Source of the DNA: a virus
IMG/VR virus record: IMGVR_UViG_3300021364_000059
Coordinates: 1-39,690 of that record
Direction: 5' to 3' (one strand)
DNA: 39,690 nt
In this document: positions 19,241-39,690 of the stretch, piece after piece
Layout of the letters: each line of letters starts with the position of its first letter
Position numbering within the stretch: position 1 is the first letter of the stretch
The notes under the pieces: generated by a model
What the model saw: only the letters and a program-made list of their open reading frames with translations
Databases searched by the model: none
What the model was told of the DNA's origin: nothing
Made by a program: the position numbers and the translations under genes

Positions 19241-19618
19241 TTGGGCATGATTGAAAGTTTATTTGTGCTTTGGGGACTGTTTATCAAACACGCTATTGCA
19301 GACTTAGCGATACAATCTTTCAGAACACCAGGAGACAAAAGCAACCTTAGAAATCCTAAGGGTTGGATCCATGCGTTTGATCATTCTGCACTCACATTTG
19401 TTGTGATAATTCTAGCAACATTTAATTTTACAAATGCAATACTTATTGCTCTACTAGATTATGTTTTACACTTTATAATTGATTACGTTAAAACAGTAAT
19501 TATTAAAAAGAACAAATGGGACATAGATAGCAGAAAGTATTGGATCGCACAATCAGTAGATCAAATGGCTCACTTTAGTTGTTATTTAATTTACGTTCTT
19601 CTCTTGACATCTACCTAA
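19241..19618 (+). CDS. DUF3307-like membrane protein, TTG start, 125 aa
   Basis: Several hydrophobic helices (residues 4-14, 46-64, 68-86 and 108-122) with polar motifs typical of the DUF3307 family: IKHAIADLAIQS near the start, GWIHAFDHSALTF, and LLDYVLHFIIDYVK. The His/Asp pairs inside membrane segments are characteristic of that family, whose function is unknown. The TTG start is preferred because AAAGGA lies about 8 nt upstream; the ATG two codons later is the alternative. A sigma70-type promoter for the tmRNA lies inside the end of this gene. Confidence 0.7.
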   Translation: MGMIESLFVLWGLFIKHAIADLAIQSFRTPGDKSNLRNPKGWIHAFDHSALTFVVIILATFNFTNAILIALLDYVLHFIIDYVKTVIIKKNKWDIDSRKYWIAQSVDQMAHFSCYLIYVLLLTST

Positions 19619-19634
19619 AAAGACAGTATAAATA
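19604..19634 (+). promoter_or_regulatory. Overlapping sigma70-type and T4 late promoters for the tmRNA
   Basis: TTGACA, 17-nt spacer, TATAAA; the -10 box is the start of a perfect late-promoter octamer TATAAATA (19627-19634). The same site can thus serve host sigma70 polymerase early and the phage late sigma factor later, giving constant tmRNA supply. Confidence 0.75.
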
Positions 19635-19650
19635 TAAACGTAACGTTGAA

Positions 19651-19985
19651 GCAATTCAAACGCTAGACAGGACCTGGGGGCAGTACCCAGCAGGTCCACC
19701 ATAAACACATTGTAAGTTTGCGATAGTGTGTTTATGATGGGCCTGAACTAGGATCGACTGGTAGTTAATAGATGAGTGGAGTTGCCCGGATCTAAGCTCG
19801 GTTAACGCGAAGACACTTTACAAATGCAAACGCAACTGTAAACAACGGCGAATTTACTTTCGTGAACTTCGGTGCACTTAATGACTTCGCTGTCAATGAG
19901 GATTTCGCCCTAGCGGCCTAATCGCTCGGGGTTGGCGACTTACCTAGCAACAGAAAAGTCGCACTTTTACTATGTTACCTGACAT
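19651..19985 (+). ncRNA. ssrA: Circularly permuted (two-piece) tmRNA
   Basis: tmRNA rescues stalled ribosomes and tags the nascent protein. The acceptor piece comes first: the T-arm CTGGG/CCCAG, then CAGGTCC and ACCA (19691-19701). A spacer hairpin (TAAACACA pairing with TGTGTTTA, about 19702-19735) follows; then the coding piece begins GGGCCTGAACTAGGATCGA at 19739. GGGCCTG pairs with CAGGTCC over seven positions (one G-U), rebuilding the acceptor stem across the permutation. The tag frame runs from GCA at about 19826 to TAA at 19919-19921: 31 residues starting ANATVNN and ending EDFALAA, an ssrA-type degradation tail. Two-piece tmRNA is the alphaproteobacterial form, supporting such a host. 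The outer ends and the resume codon are estimates. Confidence 0.9.
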
Positions 19986-19993
19986 TATAAATA
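19986..19993 (+). promoter_or_regulatory. T4-type late promoter, perfect TATAAATA
   Basis: A perfect TATAAATA followed by CTT, 95 nt before the ATG of the outer-membrane protein gene at 20089. The leader between them has no other gene; it contains the repeated words TATAAG/TTATATAA and an AGAGGAAAA ribosome site. Confidence 0.75.
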
Positions 19994-20088
19994 CTTCGTG
20001 CCATAAAAGCACATCATATCTATAAGTTTAGATAACTACACATTGTAGGCAAGTACGACCTACACTTTTATATAAAAGAGGAAAATAA

Positions 20089-23031: not shown

Positions 23032-23065
23032 ATAAATCAACTTTAAATATTATATGAGGTATATC

Positions 23066-23638
23066 ATGAAATCAACTATACTATGGGTGATTGCCGTCCT
23101 GAGTTTATCGACCGCTTTCGCTCAATCTCAAGCAAGTACATTTCAAAACCCAGTCAAAGGTGAATTGTACTCAGAAGAACGTCAACCGGAACTGTACTGC
23201 CTAGCAATGAACATTTATTTTGAGGCACGTGCAGAACCACAAGCAGGACAATATGCCGTAGCAGACGTTGTCTTGAATCGTGTACAGGACACAAGGTACC
23301 CTGGCACAATCTGCGAAGTAATTAAAGAAGGACCTATACGTGAAAGCTGGAAGACACGAAAAGATCCTGACCTAAAGGACGATGAAAGGAAATATTATCC
23401 TGTGAGACATCGTTGTCAATTTTCATGGTACTGCGATGGTAGAGCCGATAATGTATACGACAGTGATGCATGGAGGATTGCACAAGAGATTGCATTCCGT
23501 ATTGTAAACGAAAGACGTATGCGAGGACTAACTGAAGGTTCTACACATTACCATGCTGATTATGTTTCCCCAAAATGGGCAAAAGAACTCGATCTAGTAG
23601 GTCGTGTAGGCACACACATATTTTATCGTTGGCCGTAA
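23066..23638 (+). CDS. SleB-type cell-wall hydrolase with signal peptide (endolysin candidate)
   Basis: The start at 23066 gives MKSTILWVIAVLSLSTAFA, a signal peptide; the in-frame ATG at 23054 lacks a ribosome site. The mature part has the hydrolase-2/SleB signatures: LAMNIYFEARAEP with the catalytic Glu, YAVADVVLNRV, CQFSWYCDG, then THYHADYVSPKWAK and a final GTHIFYRW. Family members cleave peptidoglycan glycan strands. Export by a signal peptide would place it in the periplasm without a holin. It is probably the phage lysin, under a late-like box. An alternative is a virion-associated wall-degrading protein. Confidence 0.88.
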   Translation: MKSTILWVIAVLSLSTAFAQSQASTFQNPVKGELYSEERQPELYCLAMNIYFEARAEPQAGQYAVADVVLNRVQDTRYPGTICEVIKEGPIRESWKTRKDPDLKDDERKYYPVRHRCQFSWYCDGRADNVYDSDAWRIAQEIAFRIVNERRMRGLTEGSTHYHADYVSPKWAKELDLVGRVGTHIFYRWP

Positions 23639-30469: not shown

Positions 30470-31057
30470 ATGAGTTTAGCATCACTAACACAGGCCGCTC
30501 ATCAAAATGCAGAACGTCAGGAATTCGCAAGAGAAATGATGTCAGGCAATATGAGCCCTGAAAAATATAAAACATATTTGTATAATATGTGGTTAATTTA
30601 CGACATCCTAGAAGATGTTGCACTAAGCATGGGTTGCTTTGGACCTGAAGATCCACAAATGCCAGATGACGATCTACCATTAGATGGACTAATCCAAGCA
30701 GATGATATTTGGGCTGACTACACAGAACTAGGTGGAACTGAAGAAAATGCACCTACAGTAGTACCAAGCACTGAAGCATACAGAAGTCACATTATCAAAA
30801 ACTGTCAGCATGACAAAGACAAGTTGTTTGCACACATTTATGTTAGACATATGGGCGATTTAAGTGGCGGACAAATGATTAAGGACAAAGTTCCTGGATC
30901 AGGTAAAATGTATCAGTTTGCTGATATGACACATTCTGTAGATGAAATGAAAGGTCTAATCCGTAGACGTACTAAAGATAGTATGGCTGACGAAGCAAAT
31001 AAGGCTTTTGAATTTTCAACTAAGATCTTTGAAGAACTAAACGATTTAACTTACTAA
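30470..31057 (+). CDS. hemO: Heme oxygenase
   Basis: Heme oxygenase opens heme to biliverdin IX-alpha, CO and iron. The 195-residue protein carries the proximal-His helix (LTQAAHQNAER, His11), the FAREMMSGNMSPEKYKTYL helix and the distal-helix signature GDLSGGQ (about residues 129-135). Length is normal for bacterial or phage forms. The perfect late promoter at 30421 and the tight link to a bilin reductase 20 nt downstream suggest both act in one pathway. In cyanophages such pairs make bilin pigments; here the host is apparently not a phycobilin producer. Confidence 0.93.
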   Translation: MSLASLTQAAHQNAERQEFAREMMSGNMSPEKYKTYLYNMWLIYDILEDVALSMGCFGPEDPQMPDDDLPLDGLIQADDIWADYTELGGTEENAPTVVPSTEAYRSHIIKNCQHDKDKLFAHIYVRHMGDLSGGQMIKDKVPGSGKMYQFADMTHSVDEMKGLIRRRTKDSMADEANKAFEFSTKIFEELNDLTY

Positions 31058-31077
31058 AGTAAAGTAAGGAGAGTAAA

Positions 31078-31764
31078 GTGATCTGGGATCAACTCGTCGA
31101 CTGTCAAAAAGCTATCATTCAAATGTTCGATGCCCACGGTACTGAAATAGAGGAGCCAGGAATGGCACACTTTAATCAGGCGGATGGGGGTTGGATAAAC
31201 AGAGTATGGGAAAACGAACATGTTCGCAGAGCTCATATTGATGTTGTTGACGCAAGAGATTCCAAAGGGTTATGGATGATGCATGTATGTGTATTTCCAC
31301 AACTTAACAATAACGGACCTATTTACGGATTTGACGTTATTGCAGGAAAGTCCAAAATGACTGGTGCTTTCCATGATTTTTCTGCTAGTTCTGGCGGAGA
31401 AGATCACCCTATGGTTCAGTGGTATCAGAGTGCAGTACAAGATTTTGTGCCAGAAAAAAAGCGTGAGTTACCCGAGTGGGCAACTAACATCTTTACTCCA
31501 AGTATGATTGCCGCAAGCAATGTAAAGGAAGAAGAAGCAACTGTTATTATTCAACTGGCGCTAGACAATCTTGAAACTTACTTTGATTCCATTGGCCAAT
31601 ATACAGGTTATGGTGATAGAGATTTAACTATTGCAAGCCAAAACTATTACTGTCATAACCAACAACAAAATCCACACACTCCGAGAGTAATGAAAAGCCT
31701 CGGGCTTAATGAAGCAGATGTTGATAAATTCTGTACAGACATGCTCTTTCCTAAGATTAACTAG
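31078..31764 (+). CDS. pcyX: Ferredoxin-dependent bilin reductase, PcyX/PcyA-like, GTG start
   Basis: These enzymes reduce biliverdin with electrons from ferredoxin. The pattern fits the family: NNGPIYGFDVIAGKSKMTG, then HDFSASSGG, LPEWATNIFTPSMI, and a C-terminal YCHNQQQNPHTPRVMKSLG with DVDKFCTDMLFP. Length (228) is typical. The GTG start has AAGGAG 8 nt upstream. From its sequence style and its partner heme oxygenase, I place it near PcyX, the phycoerythrobilin-forming reductase described from marine viral DNA of non-cyanobacterial phages; PcyA or PebS-type products cannot be excluded without active-site comparison. Confidence 0.85.
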   Translation: MIWDQLVDCQKAIIQMFDAHGTEIEEPGMAHFNQADGGWINRVWENEHVRRAHIDVVDARDSKGLWMMHVCVFPQLNNNGPIYGFDVIAGKSKMTGAFHDFSASSGGEDHPMVQWYQSAVQDFVPEKKRELPEWATNIFTPSMIAASNVKEEEATVIIQLALDNLETYFDSIGQYTGYGDRDLTIASQNYYCHNQQQNPHTPRVMKSLGLNEADVDKFCTDMLFPKIN

Positions 31765-32553: not shown

Positions 32554-32780
32554 TACACGCTTTCTTACTTGTTGTTATACTAGGATCAGGCGAAACCGCA
32601 AAACAACAACCAAATCCTATGATCTTTAGAAGTATAGATGTATGCCAATATTATGCAAAAAGGATTCCTAGACAATATGGAAACTATGGCTACAAAGATC
32701 TAGTTCCAGCCGAACATAGAGTAACTGCCTATTGTAAACCAGTATACGTTCAAGACGGACCTAATGTATACGATCACTAA
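32550..32780 (+). CDS. Small phage protein with signal-like N-terminus, 76 aa
   Basis: It starts MIHAFLLVVILGSGETAKQQPNP, a short hydrophobic N-terminus that could be a weak signal peptide or anchor. Two Cys residues (DVCQYYAKRIP and AYCKPVYV) could form a disulfide if exported. It resembles small exported proteins of marine T4-like phages. It converges with the Fis-like gene on the other strand with a 4-nt overlap. Confidence 0.58.
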   Translation: MIHAFLLVVILGSGETAKQQPNPMIFRSIDVCQYYAKRIPRQYGNYGYKDLVPAEHRVTAYCKPVYVQDGPNVYDH

Positions 32781-33004
32781 ACTAGTTCGTATTTCTTTGC
32801 CTTAGCAATAAAAGTAACCCTACCTAATTTAAGTGCTTTCGCGGCTTTGGTTTGATTACCTGAGTGAGTGCTGAGAGCCTCCATTATACGGCTCCGTTCT
32901 AAATCAGCAACTTCTTCTGCTAGGTCCGTATCTAAATCTAAATTTGAAAATGCATCGTCTAGTGATTCCCAGAGTACATCTTGTTCTGTTTTCCAATCCA
33001 CCAT
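32777..33004 (-). CDS. Fis/NtrC-type helix-turn-helix regulator, 75 aa
   Basis: The C-terminal part (VADLERSRIMEALSTHSGNQ, then TKAAKALKLGRVTFIAKAKKYEL) has the Fis-type helix-turn-helix: GNQTKAAKALKLGR corresponds to the Fis turn (GNQTRAAxxLGINR). The N-terminus is acidic. The start at 33004 is preferred because a late box TATAAATA on the minus strand (33017 to 33010) ends 5 nt upstream and no ribosome site exists, suggesting leaderless translation; 33010 is the alternative. It is divergent from the curli-like cluster, with a 10-bp dyad in between, and is a candidate regulator of that cluster. Confidence 0.72.
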   Translation of the reverse strand: MVDWKTEQDVLWESLDDAFSNLDLDTDLAEEVADLERSRIMEALSTHSGNQTKAAKALKLGRVTFIAKAKKYELV

Positions 33005-33009
33005 ATACA

Positions 33010-33017
33010 TATTTATA
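33010..33017 (-). promoter_or_regulatory. Late promoter for the Fis-like gene, leaderless geometry
   Basis: TATAAATA read on the minus strand, then TGTAT, then the ATG at 33004. All eight consensus positions match. Confidence 0.6.
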
Positions 33018-33071
33018 AAAACACACATTTGGTTTTTTGCATACGAAAGTATATAAACTACAACTATTAAG

Positions 33072-33095
33072 TAGGTGTAAAATAATTTACACCTA
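33072..33095. promoter_or_regulatory. 10-bp perfect dyad upstream of the curli-like cluster
   Basis: TAGGTGTAAA, a 4-nt centre ATAA, then its exact complement TTTACACCTA. It ends 2 nt before the late promoter TATAAATA at 33098 and lies between the divergent Fis-like gene and csgF. There is no T-run, so an operator for a dimeric regulator is more likely than a terminator. Confidence 0.65.
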
Positions 33096-33097
33096 TA

Positions 33098-33123
33098 TAT
33101 AAATAATAGCATAGAGCGTGAGG
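33098..33123 (+). promoter_or_regulatory. T4-type late promoter and leader motif of the curli-like cluster
   Basis: A perfect TATAAATA (33098-33105), followed at 33112 by TAGAGCGTGAGG, the 12-mer also found at 31804. The csgF ATG follows at 33179 with an AAGGAG ribosome site. Confidence 0.72.
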
Positions 33124-33178
33124 AGGCATAGGCGGTTTCAAACAAAAGCTGGTAAATATATATGAAGGAGTCTGACAA

Positions 33179-33649
33179 ATGTACAGAGTTGTTTTTTACG
33201 TAGTCATCTCGGCAATGATATTAATCAGCAAACCAGTAGCCGCTGAACTTACTTGGGGCTTTAAAAGTCCTGCGTTCCATCATGGTAATGGTTACTCATC
33301 ACATGTTTTAAGTGTTGAGCAACTACAACATAATAGAAAGCAAGATTTAAAAGACAAGGCAGATGCAGAGGCAAGGAGATTAGAACGAGAGTTAGAAAAC
33401 ACTACCCTGAACAAATTTGTTAAGAACGTTGAGTCAAGAATTTACGCAACATTATCAAAACAAATGGTAGATAGTATGTTCGCTGATTGTGGAAACAGTT
33501 GTGCAAACAGTGGTTCCGCAGAAATAGAAGGCTCGCAAATATCGTGGGTCAAAGACACTACTACAGGAGCGATTACGCTTACTGTAATAGAAGAAGACGG
33601 AAGCACAACAACTATCGAAATACCTGGATCAGGGGATTTTAACTTTTGA
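33179..33649 (+). CDS. csgF: CsgF-like curli assembly factor
   Basis: In curli systems CsgF sits on the CsgG pore and couples secretion to fibre nucleation. The 156-residue protein has a signal peptide (MYRVVFYVVISAMILISKPVAA) and then the CsgF N-terminal block: ELTWGFKSPAFHHGNGYSSH, with the family features xSPxFxGGN. The family's helical middle follows (LKDKADAEARRLERELEN) and a beta C-terminus (ITLTVIEEDGSTTTIEI). It overlaps csgG by 4 nt. The gene order csgF-csgG, the pair needed for secretion, supports the call. Confidence 0.85.
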   Translation: MYRVVFYVVISAMILISKPVAAELTWGFKSPAFHHGNGYSSHVLSVEQLQHNRKQDLKDKADAEARRLERELENTTLNKFVKNVESRIYATLSKQMVDSMFADCGNSCANSGSAEIEGSQISWVKDTTTGAITLTVIEEDGSTTTIEIPGSGDFNF

Positions 33650-34629
33650 ACAAGATCTTAATTATACTAGGCTTATTGTTACTAACTGGATGCAGTGGAA
33701 CAATGCAAAAGTCGTTGGCCATAAAGGAAAACGCTGGACCACCAAGGGTACAGCCGGCTCCATTAGCTGATAGACTAATTGCAGTTCCTGAGTTAGATGG
33801 CAAGAAAATAACTATCGCAGTTTACAGTTTTTCTGATAAGACTGGACAACGTAAACCTGCAGATAATATTGCCAATCTATCTAGTGCAGTAACACAAGGA
33901 TCCGAAGTATGGGTGATTAAGGCGTTACAAGAGATAGGCAACAAAACGTGGTTCGAAGTTGTTGAACGTATAGGTATGGATAACTTGATTAAAGAAAGAC
34001 AGTTGATCCGTAACACTAGAGAAGTATACGAGAAAAACTTACCGAACGGTCCTAGAGCATTGAAACCAATGGTGTTCGCAGGATTAATACTTGAAGGCGG
34101 CATCATTGGTTACGATAGCAACGTAGCTGTCGGAGGTGTAGGGAGTCGATACTTAGGCATAGGTGCTCAGACAGAGTACAGAGTTGATACGGTAACGGTA
34201 GTTATGAGAATTGTATCAGTAAGCACAGGGAAAGTGCTTTTGAGTATTGCAACGGAAAAAACCATTGCAAGTTCGAGGTCTGGAGCAGACATTTTTAAGT
34301 TCCTTGATATGGGAACTAAATTAATAGAATCGGAGACAGGTTATTCTGTCAACGAACCAGTAAATTACGCTGTAAGGGCGGCGATCGAAGCAGGTGTAGT
34401 TCAACTGGTATATGAAGGTGAAAAGGAAGGACTTTGGAAGTTTAAGGACACAACATACCATGGAGGTACACCTAAACAGAGACCATTACCAATCAAGGAC
34501 GCATTGGATAAATGGCCTGAGGCGAGATTGTACTGTAATGAGAGAGACTTATGTTGGCCTGTAGCTGAAGAAACAACAAAAACAACGAGGGACAACAATG
34601 ATAATGACAAGAAAGTACACCAAGAATAG
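33646..34629 (+). CDS. csgG: CsgG-like outer-membrane secretion channel, TTG start
   Basis: CsgG forms the nonameric outer-membrane pore that exports curli subunits. Seen: a lipoprotein signal (MNKILIILGLLLLTGCSG, lipobox LTGC), PPLADRLIAVPELDGKK-type segment and ITIAVYSFSDKTGQRKP, WFEVVERIGMDNLIKERQ, the transmembrane hairpin region AGLILEGGIIGYDSN and GIGAQTEYRVDTVTVVMRIV, and the C-terminal YAVRAAIEAGVVQLV. Length 327 is close to E. coli CsgG (277) plus a polar C-terminal tail of about 45 residues rich in Thr and Lys. The TTG overlaps the csgF stop (TTTGA). CsgG/CsgF homologues have, to my recollection, been noted in other SAR11-type myophages. Confidence 0.92.
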   Translation: MNKILIILGLLLLTGCSGTMQKSLAIKENAGPPRVQPAPLADRLIAVPELDGKKITIAVYSFSDKTGQRKPADNIANLSSAVTQGSEVWVIKALQEIGNKTWFEVVERIGMDNLIKERQLIRNTREVYEKNLPNGPRALKPMVFAGLILEGGIIGYDSNVAVGGVGSRYLGIGAQTEYRVDTVTVVMRIVSVSTGKVLLSIATEKTIASSRSGADIFKFLDMGTKLIESETGYSVNEPVNYAVRAAIEAGVVQLVYEGEKEGLWKFKDTTYHGGTPKQRPLPIKDALDKWPEARLYCNERDLCWPVAEETTKTTRDNNDNDKKVHQE

Positions 34630-35353
34630 CATACTAGCTTTGGTACTACTATCTATGTTCTCAGTGACTCCAGCAATAGCTAACGACATCTATATAGAAC
34701 AAGTTGGTGACACACTAGACTTAGACATTACGCAAGACGGCGCAAACAACGTTATTGGTACATCAACAACTGATGTAAATTTAGACGGTGACGATATGAC
34801 ATTTGCGATAACACAAACTGGAAGCACAAACTCAATTGTAGCAGATATACAAGGTAACAGTTATACTGGTACATGGGTATTTACTGGAGACAGTAATACA
34901 GTAGATTTAAGTTGTGACAGCACAAGTGGAACAAATTGTGAAAACATAACTTTAAATATTACAGCGACTGGTGATTCAAACGCATTTACATTTGATATTG
35001 GTGATACAGCTGATGCAGATGGATCTAGCATTGGATTTACAATTACTGGAGACGGAAACGTTATTAATTCAAACGTAGACGGCAAAAGTGCAGAGATAGT
35101 TGTAAGTGTTAATAACAGTTCAAGCACAGCAAGTGGCGGTGCGGCGAGCGGATTGCTAACGTCAAGTGGTTCAGGAAACATAGTTGACATTGACATAGAT
35201 GGCGATGGAGATAGTGCTGGACACACAGTAAAAATAGATGCAACTGGCGGTGCAAGTCACTACAAGGTTACACAAAGTGGAACAGCTGATAATATGATAG
35301 ATGCTGACTTTGCTGGTGATGACCAAGAAGTGAACATTACACAGTCTGACTAA
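34598..35353 (+). CDS. Curlin-repeat protein 1 (secreted amyloid subunit candidate)
   Basis: A signal peptide (ALVLLSMFSVTPAIA) is followed by ANDIYIEQVGDTLDLDITQDG, then repeated units of the pattern I/V-x-Q/D-x-G-x-x-N at roughly 20-25 residue spacing (for example AITQTGSTNSI, VFTGDSNTV, TATGDSNAF, TITGDGNVI, KVTQSGTADNM). Curlin repeats (xQxGxxNxxxxxQ) form beta-hairpin stacks in CsgA/CsgB. The body is Asp-, Ser- and Gly-rich with two Cys near residue 105. It overlaps csgG by 32 nt and has GAGGGACAACA as ribosome site. The mature N-terminus recurs in the second curlin protein, so they derive from one ancestor. Confidence 0.8.
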   Translation: MIMTRKYTKNSILALVLLSMFSVTPAIANDIYIEQVGDTLDLDITQDGANNVIGTSTTDVNLDGDDMTFAITQTGSTNSIVADIQGNSYTGTWVFTGDSNTVDLSCDSTSGTNCENITLNITATGDSNAFTFDIGDTADADGSSIGFTITGDGNVINSNVDGKSAEIVVSVNNSSSTASGGAASGLLTSSGSGNIVDIDIDGDGDSAGHTVKIDATGGASHYKVTQSGTADNMIDADFAGDDQEVNITQSD

Positions 35354-35362
35354 GGAAGAGGC

Positions 35363-36517
35363 ATGGCGCCAAACAAGTACACATGGTTTCTGGTCTTTGG
35401 CTTAATAATACTAGCTATACTAGTCAAACCAGCATATGGAAATGTTGGAGAGATCGGACAGATTAAAGGATCAGGCGTACTTGAAAGAGACGGTGACATT
35501 GTCATTGAAGGTAGTGCAGGTGTTGGCGTACAGTCAATGGACGAAGCAGTCACAGCAAACGGTACAATGCGTATCGACTTTATAGACGAAACCCGAGTTG
35601 AACTTACTGAACAATCTAGATTAGTAATTGATGAATTTGTATATGACCCTGCTAATGATGTAGGGTCATTATCAATCAAAGCGTCATTAGGAACAGTAAG
35701 ATACGCATCTGGACAAATTGCAAAAAAATACAAACAAAATGTTAAGATAAGAACACCAAGTGCAACTATTGGTGTACGTGGTACTGACTTTATAATGGTG
35801 GTAGACGAAATGGGTGGTAGTATGATTACTTTACTACCAAGTTGTGATACAGCAGGAATGTGCTATGTTGGCGAAATAGAAGTGCAAACAGATGCAGGCT
35901 TTGTAGTTCTTAATCAAGCGTTCCAAGCGACAGCAACAGTACACGGTATGAGAAAACCTACAGTTCCTATTGTTCTAGATATTTCAGAAGATCAATTAAA
36001 CAACTTATTGATACTTAGGAAGAAAACACCTATTGATGAATATGCAGAAGATGAAATACAAAAACGTAGACAACTTGCAGACTTTTTAGGTTTAGACTTT
36101 TTAGAGTTTGATGGATTAGACGGAGATGCTCTTAAAGATAGTATTGAAGGTATTTGGAAAACAGCATTAGATGAAACTTCTTTTATGTTGGCGGACATGT
36201 TGCATGATATGTTAGATAAATTAAATGCGGCACTTGCGGCTCTATTCCAAGATGAACTTGATAGACAAAATAGAAGAATGTTACAAAATGTGCCACAAGT
36301 AGGATTTGATCCAGAAACACAAATTAGATTAGATCTCATTGAACCTTATTGGGTCTGGCAACGTGAAGACTTTGAACAGGGTGGATTTATTAGATTGAGA
36401 TTAAATAATCAGTACGACTATACTTTAGACGTACAACAAGGGGAGTTTTTTCTATATGATTATAGATTGGGTGCTGAGGGCAACAATAGTATTACTATTA
36501 TTCAAACCAATAACTAG
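35363..36517 (+). CDS. FecR-domain secreted protein, 384 aa
   Basis: An N-terminal hydrophobic segment (TWFLVFGLIILAILVKPAYG) is a signal peptide or anchor. Then comes a FecR-type domain: DGDIVIEGSAGVGVQSMDEAVTANGTMRIDFIDETRVELTEQSRLVIDEFVYDP as consecutive segments, followed by the strand SLSIKASLGTVRYASGQIAKK and the IRTPSATIGVRGTDF segment typical of this family. In bacteria FecR domains pass signals from outer-membrane events to the cytoplasm, but many secreted FecR proteins have other roles. The C-terminal half is helical and charged, with a beta tail (FIRLRLNNQYDYTLDVQQ). It lies between two curlin genes and overlaps the second by 62 nt. Confidence 0.85.
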   Translation: MAPNKYTWFLVFGLIILAILVKPAYGNVGEIGQIKGSGVLERDGDIVIEGSAGVGVQSMDEAVTANGTMRIDFIDETRVELTEQSRLVIDEFVYDPANDVGSLSIKASLGTVRYASGQIAKKYKQNVKIRTPSATIGVRGTDFIMVVDEMGGSMITLLPSCDTAGMCYVGEIEVQTDAGFVVLNQAFQATATVHGMRKPTVPIVLDISEDQLNNLLILRKKTPIDEYAEDEIQKRRQLADFLGLDFLEFDGLDGDALKDSIEGIWKTALDETSFMLADMLHDMLDKLNAALAALFQDELDRQNRRMLQNVPQVGFDPETQIRLDLIEPYWVWQREDFEQGGFIRLRLNNQYDYTLDVQQGEFFLYDYRLGAEGNNSITIIQTNN

Positions 36518-37487
36518 TTTTGCAAACGATATCTATATGGATCAAGTTGGTGATCAACTTGATATGGATATTACTCAGGACGGCCAAAATAATTCTATTC
36601 GCAGTCTAAACACTACAAGTGGTGATGCATATATAGGTGGTAATAACAAAACATTTTCAGTTACACAACAAGGTAACAATAACCGTGCAGGATTTTGGAC
36701 ACACGGTGGTAACCAAGTTATGTCCTTGACACAGCAAGGTAATTCAAATGTAAGTTCAATGGACAATCACGGTAACAACAATGATATGACTGTTACTATT
36801 GAGGGTGACAGTAATGTCACACACACAGAAATAGGCAATGGTGGAGATATTAACAATACAATTACTGTTACAATAGACAATGGTGATAGTAATACAATCT
36901 ATACAGAAGTGTTAGATGGTAGTACAAACACTATTGATGTTCAGGTACACGACCAAAGTAATAACATCAACACAGTTACAGTAAACGGTAGCAATAACAA
37001 TGTAAAAGCATGGCAGGGCAAGCACGAAGACGGTACAATTGATAATGATGAAACAGGCGACAATGACGTGTATTGGATCATAGCAGGTAGTAATAACGAT
37101 TTGGAAAGTTATCAAACAGATGATAATGGCAATGGTGGTCAGCATATTGCAAATTATATCACAGGTGACAGCAACGATGTTAAACATACACAGCGTGGCG
37201 GAGGTGACCATGAAGGATATGTTGAGATAAACGGTGATAACAATGATGTTACACTATTACAACGTGGTAACACAGATGATCAATTTGCTGATATAGTTTT
37301 AGATGATGGGCATACTGTAGATGTTTATCAACGCTATGGTTCACATACAACTAATATTGATCTTACAAATGCAGGAGGTGGCTACAATTTAGATTTGGAT
37401 CAGACAGGCACTTCAAACAAAACCTACAATCTTACTGGCACATGCACTAACTCAAACGGCTGTGGTGTAACCGTCACTCAAAATTAA
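36456..37487 (+). CDS. Curlin-repeat protein 2 (secreted amyloid subunit candidate)
   Basis: A signal peptide (VLRATIVLLLFKPITSFA) is followed by ANDIYMDQVGDQLDMDITQDG, nearly identical in pattern to curlin protein 1. About ten repeats of the xQ/x-x-G-x-N-N type follow (SVTQQGNNNRAG, SLTQQGNSNVSS, TVTIEGDSNVTH, TVNGSNNNVKAW, YITGDSNDVKHTQ, EINGDNNDVTLLQRG). Asn plus Asp and Gly make up a large share of residues. It ends with a pair of Cys (GTCTNSNGCGVTVTQN). The start overlaps the FecR gene by 62 nt and has GGGGAG upstream. It is the best fibre-forming candidate because its repeat is more regular than in protein 1. Confidence 0.82.
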   Translation: MIIDWVLRATIVLLLFKPITSFANDIYMDQVGDQLDMDITQDGQNNSIRSLNTTSGDAYIGGNNKTFSVTQQGNNNRAGFWTHGGNQVMSLTQQGNSNVSSMDNHGNNNDMTVTIEGDSNVTHTEIGNGGDINNTITVTIDNGDSNTIYTEVLDGSTNTIDVQVHDQSNNINTVTVNGSNNNVKAWQGKHEDGTIDNDETGDNDVYWIIAGSNNDLESYQTDDNGNGGQHIANYITGDSNDVKHTQRGGGDHEGYVEINGDNNDVTLLQRGNTDDQFADIVLDDGHTVDVYQRYGSHTTNIDLTNAGGGYNLDLDQTGTSNKTYNLTGTCTNSNGCGVTVTQN

Positions 37488-37494
37488 ATAAATA
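37487..37494 (+). promoter_or_regulatory. Late promoter with leaderless geometry for the SOD gene
   Basis: AATAAATA (seven of eight) overlaps the previous stop and ends 5 nt before the ATG at 37500. No ribosome site is present. Confidence 0.6.
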
Positions 37495-37499
37495 GTATT

Positions 37500-38060
37500 A
37501 TGGAACCTAGTGAAATTCGTCACATTATAAATCTACTTGAAGGCAAGGAAGAAAAATTAACTCTATCTCCTTTGCCATATGACATGGGTGACTTATCTCC
37601 TGTATTATCAAAAGACAATGTAGACTATCATTATAATGTATTATCAAAAGGATATGTTGATAGATATAATAAAAAAGAAGGGGATCCTAAATTCAATTAC
37701 GGTGGAGCAATGCTACACAATTTGTTTTGGACTCAACTTAGAAAACCAGCAGGAGCAAACAATCCTGTAGGCTCTATCAAATCTCTTATAGAAGACAAGC
37801 ACAAAGATTATAAAACTTTCAAAGAACATGTAATTGAACAAGCAATGACCATTCAAGGTAGTGGTTGGGTATATCTTTCTAAGAAAGGTGAAATCAAAAC
37901 TACACCTAACCAAAGTTATAAGACAGATATACTAATGCCAATTGACATGTGGGAACACAGTTTTACAGATTATGTTCCAGCTAAAGATGCTAAGAAGAAA
38001 TATATTGCAGGTATCATGCGTCTTATTAATTGGGACATTATAAACCAAAGGATGTCATAA
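37500..38060 (+). CDS. sod: Fe/Mn-family superoxide dismutase with capsid-signal-like N-terminal extension
   Basis: SOD converts superoxide to oxygen and peroxide. All four metal ligands are visible: His44 (VDYHYNV), His73 (GGAMLHNLFW), Asp149 and His153 (DMWEHSFTDY). The gateway Tyr52 is present, but the partner His of the usual KHH segment is Leu. GSGWVYL is conserved. Gly69 and a Gln at TTPNQ place it nearer the Mn type than the Fe type. A 20-residue extension, MEPSEIRHIINLLEGKEEK, precedes the normal SOD start (LSPLPYDMG). LLE followed by Gly fits the T4 prohead-protease site and the extension resembles capsid-targeting leaders, so the enzyme may be packaged in the virion. That part is inference. 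Confidence 0.85.
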   Translation: MEPSEIRHIINLLEGKEEKLTLSPLPYDMGDLSPVLSKDNVDYHYNVLSKGYVDRYNKKEGDPKFNYGGAMLHNLFWTQLRKPAGANNPVGSIKSLIEDKHKDYKTFKEHVIEQAMTIQGSGWVYLSKKGEIKTTPNQSYKTDILMPIDMWEHSFTDYVPAKDAKKKYIAGIMRLINWDIINQRMS

Positions 38061-38704
38061 TGGCTTTTCTCGTGCATAACCTTCCTCCTGTGCATGTATT
38101 AGTAAGAAAAGAATATTTGTATGATCTAGAAAAAGGACACGGCGAATACACAGAAGGTATTTGGATAAGCGTCAAGAGCATACAAGGCAAAGCATTTTAT
38201 TTTGAAACACTACTTCCTGAATACGGAGCTCTATTCGATAAACTTCCTATAAGTGCGTTTGTTTGGAAAACAGAACACGGCGATTTACCTTTAGACAATT
38301 TACAATTATGGGATTGTTTTGACTACAATCTTACTGTGATTAAAAAACCTTTGCTTAGTATGTGCGAATACTATGGCAAAGATAAACAAATGCATTCAGG
38401 TGAATACTTGTTTACTATTGATACATGCCATAGTGAAAGTAGCACACTTGATACTAACTTTTCAGAACACGATCCTGAACATAAAACATTCAATGTAATT
38501 AAATTAGATAACGGACAATTTGCCGCACAGCCAAACAATAGAATTATTTGGAGAGACCAAAGTCTTATATCAGATAAATTAATTCAACCAGACTTCAAAG
38601 TATGCACACAAAACTATAATGTAGAAACTACTCCTAAGTGGTCAGTAGGACACACAGAAAATTGGCAATACAAAACCGAAGACGAAGAAAAAAACAACAC
38701 ATAA
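38060..38704 (+). CDS. Conserved T4-like phage protein, 214 aa
   Basis: Start chosen at the TAATG junction with the SOD stop (38060); a longer frame from 38030 lies inside SOD and is rejected. It begins MAFLVHNLPPVHVLVRKEYLYD, a signature that I recognise from conserved proteins of marine T4-like phages with no known role. Landmarks: GIWISVKSIQGKAFYFETLLPEYG, LQLWDCFDYNLTVIKKPLL, and a C-terminal PNNRIIWRDQSLI. It is soluble and possibly virion-associated. Confidence 0.72.
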   Translation: MAFLVHNLPPVHVLVRKEYLYDLEKGHGEYTEGIWISVKSIQGKAFYFETLLPEYGALFDKLPISAFVWKTEHGDLPLDNLQLWDCFDYNLTVIKKPLLSMCEYYGKDKQMHSGEYLFTIDTCHSESSTLDTNFSEHDPEHKTFNVIKLDNGQFAAQPNNRIIWRDQSLISDKLIQPDFKVCTQNYNVETTPKWSVGHTENWQYKTEDEEKNNT

Positions 38705-38707
38705 ATA
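38700..38707 (+). promoter_or_regulatory. Late promoter with leaderless geometry for the CHASE2 gene
   Basis: CATAAATA (seven of eight) ends 4 nt before the ATG at 38712, again with no ribosome site. Confidence 0.6.
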
Positions 38708-38711
38708 CTGT

Positions 38712-39690
38712 ATGACGAAGTATATCACACACTGGGCCGTGGTGTTTATTACGGCTTTTATTATGATAGGATTGCACTACAACGATGGCTCTTTAGTGCA
38801 AACTGCTCGCCTTAAGCAATTCGATCTACTTCAACAAACTGATAAGGCAACATTATCCCAAGATATCGGTGTAGTTACTATCGACGAAGCCGCCATTGAA
38901 AAGTACGGGCAATGGCCTTGGAAGCGTGACATACTTGCAGATATAATCTGGAAACTTCGCGAGGCAGGTGCTGGTATCATCGTAATTCCTGTTATCATGT
39001 CGGAGACTGATAGACTAGGTGGTGATATTGGATTAGCTGAAGCACTTGCGGGTAACGGTGTTGTGATAGCACAAACAGGAAGTACCCAAACCAATCGTAA
39101 TGCGGTCCCAAGAGGCATTGCGAAAATTGGAGATCCCCTACCATACATGTTTGAATGGCCAGGGATGTTAGGACCAATCCAATTGCTAGGAGATAATGCT
39201 GACGGTGTAGGTGTGTTGAATACTAATCCTGAAATCGACGGTGTTGTGCGTAGAGTACCACTCCTAATGCGTGTCGGCGAAGACACGTATCCCGCTTTGG
39301 CAATTGAAGTTATACGTGTTGCAACAGGAGCTCCTAGTTATCAAGTTAAAGAAGCTGGTGGCGGAATAGAAGCAGTGCGTGTTCCTGGTTACCCGGTTAT
39401 AAGAACAGATCCTAATGGACAGATATGGTTACGTTGGAATAAACAATTTGAAACTATTAGTGCGGCTTCAGATGATTATAAATTATTTGAAGGAAGGACT
39501 GTTATTATAGGAGTAACCGCAGACGGCATAGGTGGTTTAATCGCTAGTCCGACTGGACCACAGTACAATTATATACCTGCGGCAGTGACACTTCAAACTG
39601 TGATAGACGGCGATCAAATTGAACGCCCCTATTGGGCATTCTTAGCAGAGCTTATCACTACCGGACTACTTGGCATAGCTTTAGCGTTGG
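38712..39690 (+). CDS. CHASE2-domain sensor protein, N-terminal part, runs off the window
   Basis: 326 codons are visible. An N-terminal membrane helix (WAVVFITAFIMIGLHY) is followed by a CHASE2 domain: SLVQTARLKQFDLLQQ, DIGVVTIDEAAIEKYGQWPW, KRDILADIIWKLREAGAGIIVI, GVLNTNPEIDGVVRRVPLL and GRTVIIGVTADGIGG. The end (AFLAELITTGLLGIALAL) begins the second membrane region. CHASE2 is an extracytoplasmic sensor normally joined to a cyclase, kinase or phosphatase domain beyond these helices; that part lies outside the window. In bacteria CHASE2 proteins are often found with FecR-domain proteins, which fits the gene at 35363. Confidence 0.85.
   Translation, partial: MTKYITHWAVVFITAFIMIGLHYNDGSLVQTARLKQFDLLQQTDKATLSQDIGVVTIDEAAIEKYGQWPWKRDILADIIWKLREAGAGIIVIPVIMSETDRLGGDIGLAEALAGNGVVIAQTGSTQTNRNAVPRGIAKIGDPLPYMFEWPGMLGPIQLLGDNADGVGVLNTNPEIDGVVRRVPLLMRVGEDTYPALAIEVIRVATGAPSYQVKEAGGGIEAVRVPGYPVIRTDPNGQIWLRWNKQFETISAASDDYKLFEGRTVIIGVTADGIGGLIASPTGPQYNYIPAAVTLQTVIDGDQIERPYWAFLAELITTGLLGIALAL

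Follow-up and report, generated by a model that had tools for sequence, protein, structure and literature searches.

Phage-borne curli genes are widespread in marine viruses, where a profile scan detected at least 589 related CsgG loci in IMG/VR, and the published guesses on their purpose conflict. Zaragoza-Solas et al. (2020; PMC7029224) found csgF and csgG in pelagimyophages and suggested that they serve to capture siblings; Buchholz et al. (2022; PMC9004378) reported curli genes in Melnitz and proposed a role in lysis. The core order csgF-csgG-curlin-FecR-curlin-CHASE2/cyclase has been published for pelagiphages (Wittmers et al., 2022; PMC9599517; also PMC7029224 and PMC9004378). Here, we analyzed IMG/VR virus record IMGVR_UViG_3300021364_000059, of the linear class (the window; the whole stretch of 39,690 bases), which carries such a curli block between position 32777 and its right end. 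That this block is real was confirmed, and we lean toward reading it as a type VIII (curli) secretion operon of the phage, from which a regulated amyloid exporter would be built late in infection. Its core is already known; the new parts are a Fis regulator with a candidate operator, an apparently shuffled second curlin (curlin 2), an apparently obligate pair of neighboring genes (the c1 pair), and one bacterial curli operon with FecR and CHASE2.

The closest described system is the pelagiphage type VIII secretion module (PMC9599517 and PMC7029224), which the window resembles in the content and order of csgF, csgG, curlin, FecR, curlin, and cyclase, the cyclase domain itself lying past the contig end here and being seen in relatives. 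To this module, the window adds a divergent Fis-like gene with its operator, as well as a superoxide dismutase (SOD) gene and a phrog_3704 gene between curlin 2 and CHASE2. Upstream of csgF, where the published module has one or two "histidine kinase" genes, the window has the Fis-type gene and related loci have c1 proteins of about 95 amino acids (aa). The same six genes occur in the same order in Pelagibacter phage HTVC008M (gp014-gp019; CsgG 52% and CHASE2 54% identical), and Methylophilales phage Melnitz shares the order as well (genes 99-104, with FecR and curlin repeats annotated; CsgG 49% identical). The gene order, already given in PMC9599517 and identical in both phages, is hence not novel. 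HTVC008M has no Fis-like gene, SOD, or phrog_3704 in its block and carries a c1 pair upstream; Melnitz has no Fis-like gene upstream of csgF.

Gene content, pore, and selection

Genes of the block overlap or abut throughout. csgF, csgG, curlin 1, the FecR-domain gene, curlin 2, SOD, the phrog_3704 gene, and the start of CHASE2 follow one another in tight succession at the right end of the window, with a Fis-type helix-turn-helix gene divergent upstream. Pfam recovered the Fis-type helix-turn-helix, CsgF, CsgG, a curlin-repeat protein, FecR, and CHASE2 in this order, as an earlier note made from the sequence alone had placed them. Its coordinates were correct and the genes that it named were all confirmed; it had overlooked SOD (37500-38060) and phrog_3704 (38061-38704).

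csgF (33179..33649, + strand; phrog_35372) matches the Pfam CsgF family over the cut-off and across nearly the whole model (E 8e-13). csgG (33646..34629, + strand; Pfam E 4e-48) encodes a predicted lipoprotein outer-membrane pore. Its residues 1-268 align with solved E. coli CsgG (E 8.5e-51), and the match spans both hairpin regions. The transmembrane hairpins that the earlier note had made a touchstone of its pore are kept in this ungapped match, and Cys16 of CsgG is invariant in 15 phage sequences. Near the constriction, E. coli CsgG KPYPASNFSTAV reads KPADNIANLSSAV in the window CsgG. The phage pore is therefore without the phenylalanine that contributes to the constriction ring in E. coli. 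CsgG and CsgF would together form an outer-membrane pore. Of the parts of a type VIII secretion system, a CsgG-family lipoprotein pore, a CsgF partner, and a curlin-repeat substrate (curlin 2) are present, and the periplasmic CsgE gate of E. coli-type systems is absent.

With the window's CsgG as query, 79 IMG/VR loci were collected. Gene order was essentially constant wherever the contig was long enough: csgF-csgG-curlin-FecR-curlin-CHASE2 were linked in essentially every related phage locus with sufficient flank, and the linkage of FecR and CHASE2 to csgG that the earlier note had relied on thus holds in related phages. We compared the window with six close or moderately close relatives and found ratios of nonsynonymous to synonymous substitution (dN/dS) well under 1 for every block gene: about 0.06-0.22 for csgF, csgG, curlin 1, FecR, and CHASE2, 0.16-0.41 for Fis, and 0.07-0.09 or 0.26-0.33 for curlin 2, depending on whether the same or a differing allele was compared. 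In close pairs, the structural genes mostly lay at 0.06-0.25. With few close pairs and several dS values near saturation, these ratios are indicative. They point to strong purifying selection on every block gene and, judged by that selection, the block is real and functional.

Curlins, FecR-fold protein, and CHASE2-cyclase

Curlin 2 (36456..37487, + strand), the putative variable subunit, has two stretches over the Pfam Curlin_rpt cut-off (E 1e-5). It also has nine G-[DNS]-[GNSD]-N motifs; 2000 shuffles gave 0.8 on average and never more than 5. AlphaFold2, given 23 relatives, modeled it as a beta-solenoid of about 27 strands (mean predicted local distance difference test [pLDDT] 77; predicted template modeling score [pTM] 0.75). 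Foldseek returned no significant match for this model. When Foldseek's list was realigned with VIA-align, the solved CsgA 8c50 came first (Z 29.6 over 290 residues, root-mean-square deviation 8.9), the next solenoid having Z 20.3; because the deviation is high, the superposition is piecewise. The stacked-hairpin fold anticipated in the earlier note is thus what is predicted for curlin 2, with CsgA as the nearest solved structure. Curlin 1 (34598..35353, + strand), the putative conserved subunit, scores below the Pfam cut-off (E 0.07). Its sequence is that of an exported, repeat-bearing protein with a signal peptide; it is kept in relatives and falls into one cluster with curlin 2 by BLASTP linkage across loci.

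The two curlins differ in how they vary between phages. Across 80 locus pairs with CsgG 80-98% identical, a descriptive comparison since loci are shared between pairs, curlin 2 had a median identity of 0.46, against 0.79 for curlin 1 and 0.83 for FecR, and its identity was under 0.5 in 54% of the pairs. The curlin 2 of the window is 80% identical to that of locus L009, 72% to that of L018, and 37% to that of L003, though the L003 CsgG is 91% identical. By these identities, curlin 2 appears to be shuffled between phages and curlin 1 and FecR do not. Such exchange fits a secreted product, and not merely a pore, that would be selected for variety. We suggest that curlin 1 would be the constant, nucleator-like subunit of an extracellular fiber and curlin 2 its interchangeable major or specificity subunit.

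Between the curlin genes lies the gene for an exported FecR-fold protein (35363..36517, + strand; Pfam FecR E 4e-9). Its AlphaFold2 model (pLDDT 84) has a signal-peptide-like helix at residues 5-20, a FecR fold, helices, and a confident C-terminal beta domain. The model matches two FecR-type domains, the PupR signaling domain 6ovk (135 residues, Z 15.2) and 4m0n (137 residues, Z 14.2), as well as 5ix9, a "cell surface anchoring domain," at Z 7.2, a range that the tool calls common. FecR and CHASE2 had been put forward as a sensing pair. Their pairing in bacteria is documented, since the Burkholderia BiofilmReg operon (PMC5192318) has an exported FecR-domain protein beside a CHASE2 sensor, as in the window; that operon comprises LysM-FecR and a CHASE2 histidine kinase with a response regulator, and no curli genes. 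Regulation in the FecI/FecR sense is unsupported, because the window protein carries a signal peptide, and neither the Pfam search nor the model shows an anti-sigma domain. Of the parts of a FecI/FecR-type regulator, it has the periplasmic FecR fold and lacks the cytoplasmic anti-sigma domain and the transmembrane segment. To us, it is more likely an exported accessory protein than a regulator of transcription. In a system without CsgE it might act in the periplasm as a plug, adaptor, or fiber anchor, a role that only the 5ix9 match encourages. The last 70 residues of the protein are predicted as regular strands. A curlin-like nucleator function for this C terminus was considered and rejected: a C-terminal hidden Markov model found 1 of 196 real curlins below E 0.01 versus 0 shuffled ones, shuffled curlins outnumbered real ones below E 10, and a profile comparison matched the signal peptide alone. 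The idea is kept as a guess only.

The CHASE2 gene (38712..39690, + strand; Pfam CHASE2 E 7e-39; phrog_35576, residues 4-321 of 681) runs off the contig, so that only the sensor half of a CHASE2-cyclase is present. In relatives, the protein continues into a class III cyclase domain closest to CyaB, in which the metal-binding Asp pair, Lys, and Arg are retained. The transition-state Asn is replaced by Ser in 45 of 79 full-length phage relatives (e.g., L003:8522-10570), the window's nearest included. The CHASE2-cyclase would report the periplasmic or envelope state to the cytoplasm.

A scan for bacterial curli operons across 84,980 species found a single chromosomal csgF-csgG-curlin-FecR-CHASE2/cyclase operon, in the metagenome-assembled genome of Hyphomonas sp. 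TMED17 (L098:9456-15479), on a 705-kb contig amid ordinary bacterial genes. Its CsgG groups with the phage proteins (support 100/100) on a long branch. Compared with the phage operons, it has a single 504-aa curlin rather than two, no c1 pair, and no Fis gene, and its cyclase keeps the catalytic Asn. A search of the family for further bacterial FecR/CHASE2 curli operons matched only the TMED17 genome of 105, and among the genomes drawn from its class (385) and its phylum (398), two sets with some overlap, a full-length match was again confined to TMED17. This operon contradicts the statement that bacterial curli operons lack FecR and cyclase; FecR with a CHASE2-cyclase is not a viral addition alone. 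Separately, phage-type curli contigs have been binned into bacterial metagenome-assembled genomes (L086-L090, L117, L119, L127, and L151) and are likely misbinned phage.

The Fis-like gene, its candidate operator, and the c1 pair

The divergent Fis-like regulator was confirmed by Pfam (HTH_8, E 7e-10). The earlier note had taken the longest open reading frame, of 133 aa; relatives indicate a protein of about 75-77 aa, encoded on the - strand at 32777..33004 (or to 33010 with an alternative start). Fis relatives of 75-98 aa lie opposite the operon strand in 28 curli loci. Between the Fis start and csgF, we found a perfect palindrome, TAGGTGTAAA-ATAA-TTTACACCTA (33072..33095, no strand assigned), a candidate operator that ends 2 bases ahead of a T4-type late promoter box, TATAAATA (33098..33105, + strand), from which csgF and the genes after it would be transcribed. 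A palindrome of equal quality arose 2 times in 2000 shuffles of the intergenic sequence. Its core, GTGTAAA-N4-TTTACAC, is present in 36 of 68 distinct Fis loci, 35 of which have it 16-91 bp away from the Fis start; none of 321 loci that lack Fis has it. These counts are not independent, since many of the loci are related to one another and were collected by way of curli or Fis genes. At the same place, most other strong Fis loci carry the core with one to three changes, and two curli loci have the site upstream of curlin 1 instead.

A blind scan of all IMG/VR viral contigs with GGTGTAAANNNNTTTACACC returned 45 contigs. In 26 of these the site lies no more than 92 bp from a Fis-like gene, and 18 of the 26 also have it beside csgF or csgG. 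We considered the Fis gene as exclusive to curli and rejected this, since 20 of 48 Fis loci had neither csgF nor csgG within the flank. In curli-less loci, the same Fis gene and site face operons of other signal-peptide proteins without a Pfam match, one of which is phrog_20531, and in the examples inspected a late-box-like GATAAATA stands beside the site. It is thus the regulator, and not curli, that the site accompanies. Operons of signal-peptide proteins divergent from Fis and the operator, some with long Thr/Asn-rich stretches, include L535:7265-9833, L551:7367-9866, and L556:6982-9892. L534-L536 and L549 each have another copy of the operator, about 9 kb away.

Over the whole window, no enrichment of the late box was seen (6 copies against an expected 4.9), a count that by itself is not significant. 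Among 117 distinct related loci, however, 36 have the box in the 180 bp that precede csgF, against an expectation of about 0.019 per locus, and on the strength of this conservation we take the box to be real, in support of the late promoter proposed in the earlier note. Zaragoza-Solas et al. (PMC7029224) reported that late-promoter prediction failed in pelagimyophages. A term search of PMC7029224, PMC9004378, and PMC9599517 found no mention of a Fis-family regulator, a helix-turn-helix protein, or a palindrome, an absence in open-licence literature that is no proof of novelty. The Fis-like protein would bind GTGTAAA-N4-TTTACAC and hold or boost the adjacent late promoter, which makes this switch a concrete DNA target for binding assays.

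A pair of small proteins flanks the curli module in related loci. The c1 proteins (phrog_18771 and kin) are two paralogs of about 95 aa with one N-terminal transmembrane segment each, encoded either upstream on the same strand or past the cyclase, usually on the opposite strand. Of 140 loci found with the c1 sequence alone, some of which overlap because two scans matched the same contigs, curli genes lie no more than 10 kb from c1 in 128, and in the remaining 12 the contig ends about 1.1 kb or less from c1. Downstream of the cyclase in L003, L005, and other relatives, the two one-transmembrane paralogs surround a protein of 60-85 aa (c6), and this c1-c6-c1 cassette adjoins every testable curli module. 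Where the flank of a Fis locus is long enough, the c1 pair is found past the cyclase on the other strand, a position that is off the contig in the window; the cyclase domain, followed by c1-c6-c1 on the - strand, would be expected right after 39690. Among named phages, only HTVC008M and Melnitz carry c1. By these neighborhoods, the pair is apparently an obligate companion of the curli module. From its position, c1 would be the gene called histidine kinase in PMC9599517; no kinase domain was found in the c1 proteins. The pair may thus be a missing component that had been labeled hypothetical and, presumably, histidine kinase. As to what c1 does, a holin function was rejected: single members resemble YvrJ (E 0.09) and a holin PHROG (E 0.024) below threshold, and across the family this resemblance is at chance level.

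Tentatively, and with less confidence than we place in the amyloid exporter, these observations can be drawn into a broader proposal. Marine T4-like phages may carry a cassette of a Fis-like protein and its operator at a late promoter that switches on interchangeable exported-protein operons, namely curli with a shuffled specificity subunit in some phages and other signal-peptide proteins in others; the curli version would need the obligate inner-membrane, one-transmembrane pair c1A/c1B as an unrecognized part of the exporter or as a timing device.

Function of the block and neighboring genes

Of the working, late-made amyloid-export system that the earlier note envisaged, the pore, CsgF, two substrates, FecR, CHASE2, and the late promoter appear well supported by sequence, and the benefit of a fiber to the phage is what we infer. 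The likely benefit would be a fiber on infected cells that gathers neighbors or virions or blocks competing phages. Several points weigh against such an exporter. CsgE is missing: no PF10627 match was found in 12 phage records (the window, HTVC008M, and Melnitz included), with a positive E. coli control, so that the absence seen in the window by the earlier note extends to 11 related records. CsgE has been reported as stimulating, not essential (PMC7029224). No fiber has ever been seen for phage curli, Melnitz gave no clumping in cytograms or transmission electron microscopy (PMC9004378), and the hosts are inferred rather than observed. Moreover, the Fis gene is missing from most curli loci, curlin 1 stays below the Pfam cut-off, and the dN/dS ratios carry the limits given above.

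Could the pore alone be what is selected? As proposed for Melnitz (PMC9004378), CsgG-CsgF might be a gated lysis device, analogous to a pinholin or secretin, with the other genes as regulators or relics. Late expression, as the promoter suggests, and the absence of CsgE would suit such a device, as would the sub-threshold likeness of one obligate flanking family to YvrJ and a holin PHROG, were it not at chance level across c1. We nevertheless think a lysis device unlikely: a pore alone would not call for two curlins kept by purifying selection in relatives, nor for a curlin 2 that diversifies by exchange, and a separate Cell Wall Hydrolase endolysin candidate lies at 23054-23638, apart from the curli block. 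The shuffling of curlin 2 favors a secreted surface product over a bare lysis pore, insofar as sequence can tell. The same curlins and their exchange are left unexplained if the pore instead serves the uptake or release of small molecules (cofactors, siderophores, or polysaccharide) sensed by FecR and CHASE2, as suggested in PMC7029224 and PMC9599517. The PupR-like match of the FecR-fold domain is in keeping with that suggestion, but a FecR protein without an anti-sigma domain is no classical iron-uptake regulator, and we regard this role as distinctly improbable. A fiber that is primarily a superinfection-exclusion coat and not a capture device, as proposed in PMC9599517, would be compatible with a late, diversified surface product that blocks competitors. 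Sequence does not separate exclusion from sibling or virion capture, and for exclusion, expression early in infection would serve better than late expression; as the primary purpose of the fiber, exclusion seems doubtful to us. The regulated amyloid exporter is thus the reading that we retain.

The slot between curlin 2 and CHASE2 holds cargo that differs from phage to phage, and SOD and phrog_3704 occupy it in this window only, among related loci. Both are phage genes in their own right. The Fe/Mn SOD (+ strand; Pfam E 2e-17 and 7.5e-11; Mn-SOD structures E 8.5e-20) was considered as a component of the curli system and rejected; because its IMG/VR relatives adjoin curli in just 5 of 80 loci, we treat it as cargo within the operon. 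It has 83 relatives in viral contigs, some at 75-79% identity, with Pseudomonas phage PA5oct and others at about 36%. The phrog_3704 gene (+ strand; E 6.5e-104), a cyanophage and pelagiphage neighbor of purM that is labeled ferredoxin, encodes a product 73.6% identical to that of Synechococcus phage Syn19.

Elsewhere in the window, a permuted, alphaproteobacterial-type transfer-messenger RNA gene at 19608-20012, the sole match in an Rfam search of the window, has TATAAATA boxes at both ends. A heme oxygenase gene followed by a ferredoxin-dependent bilin reductase gene (30470-31764) forms an apparent phage bilin-synthesis pair, and roughly half of the related loci conserve these genes upstream of the curli block.

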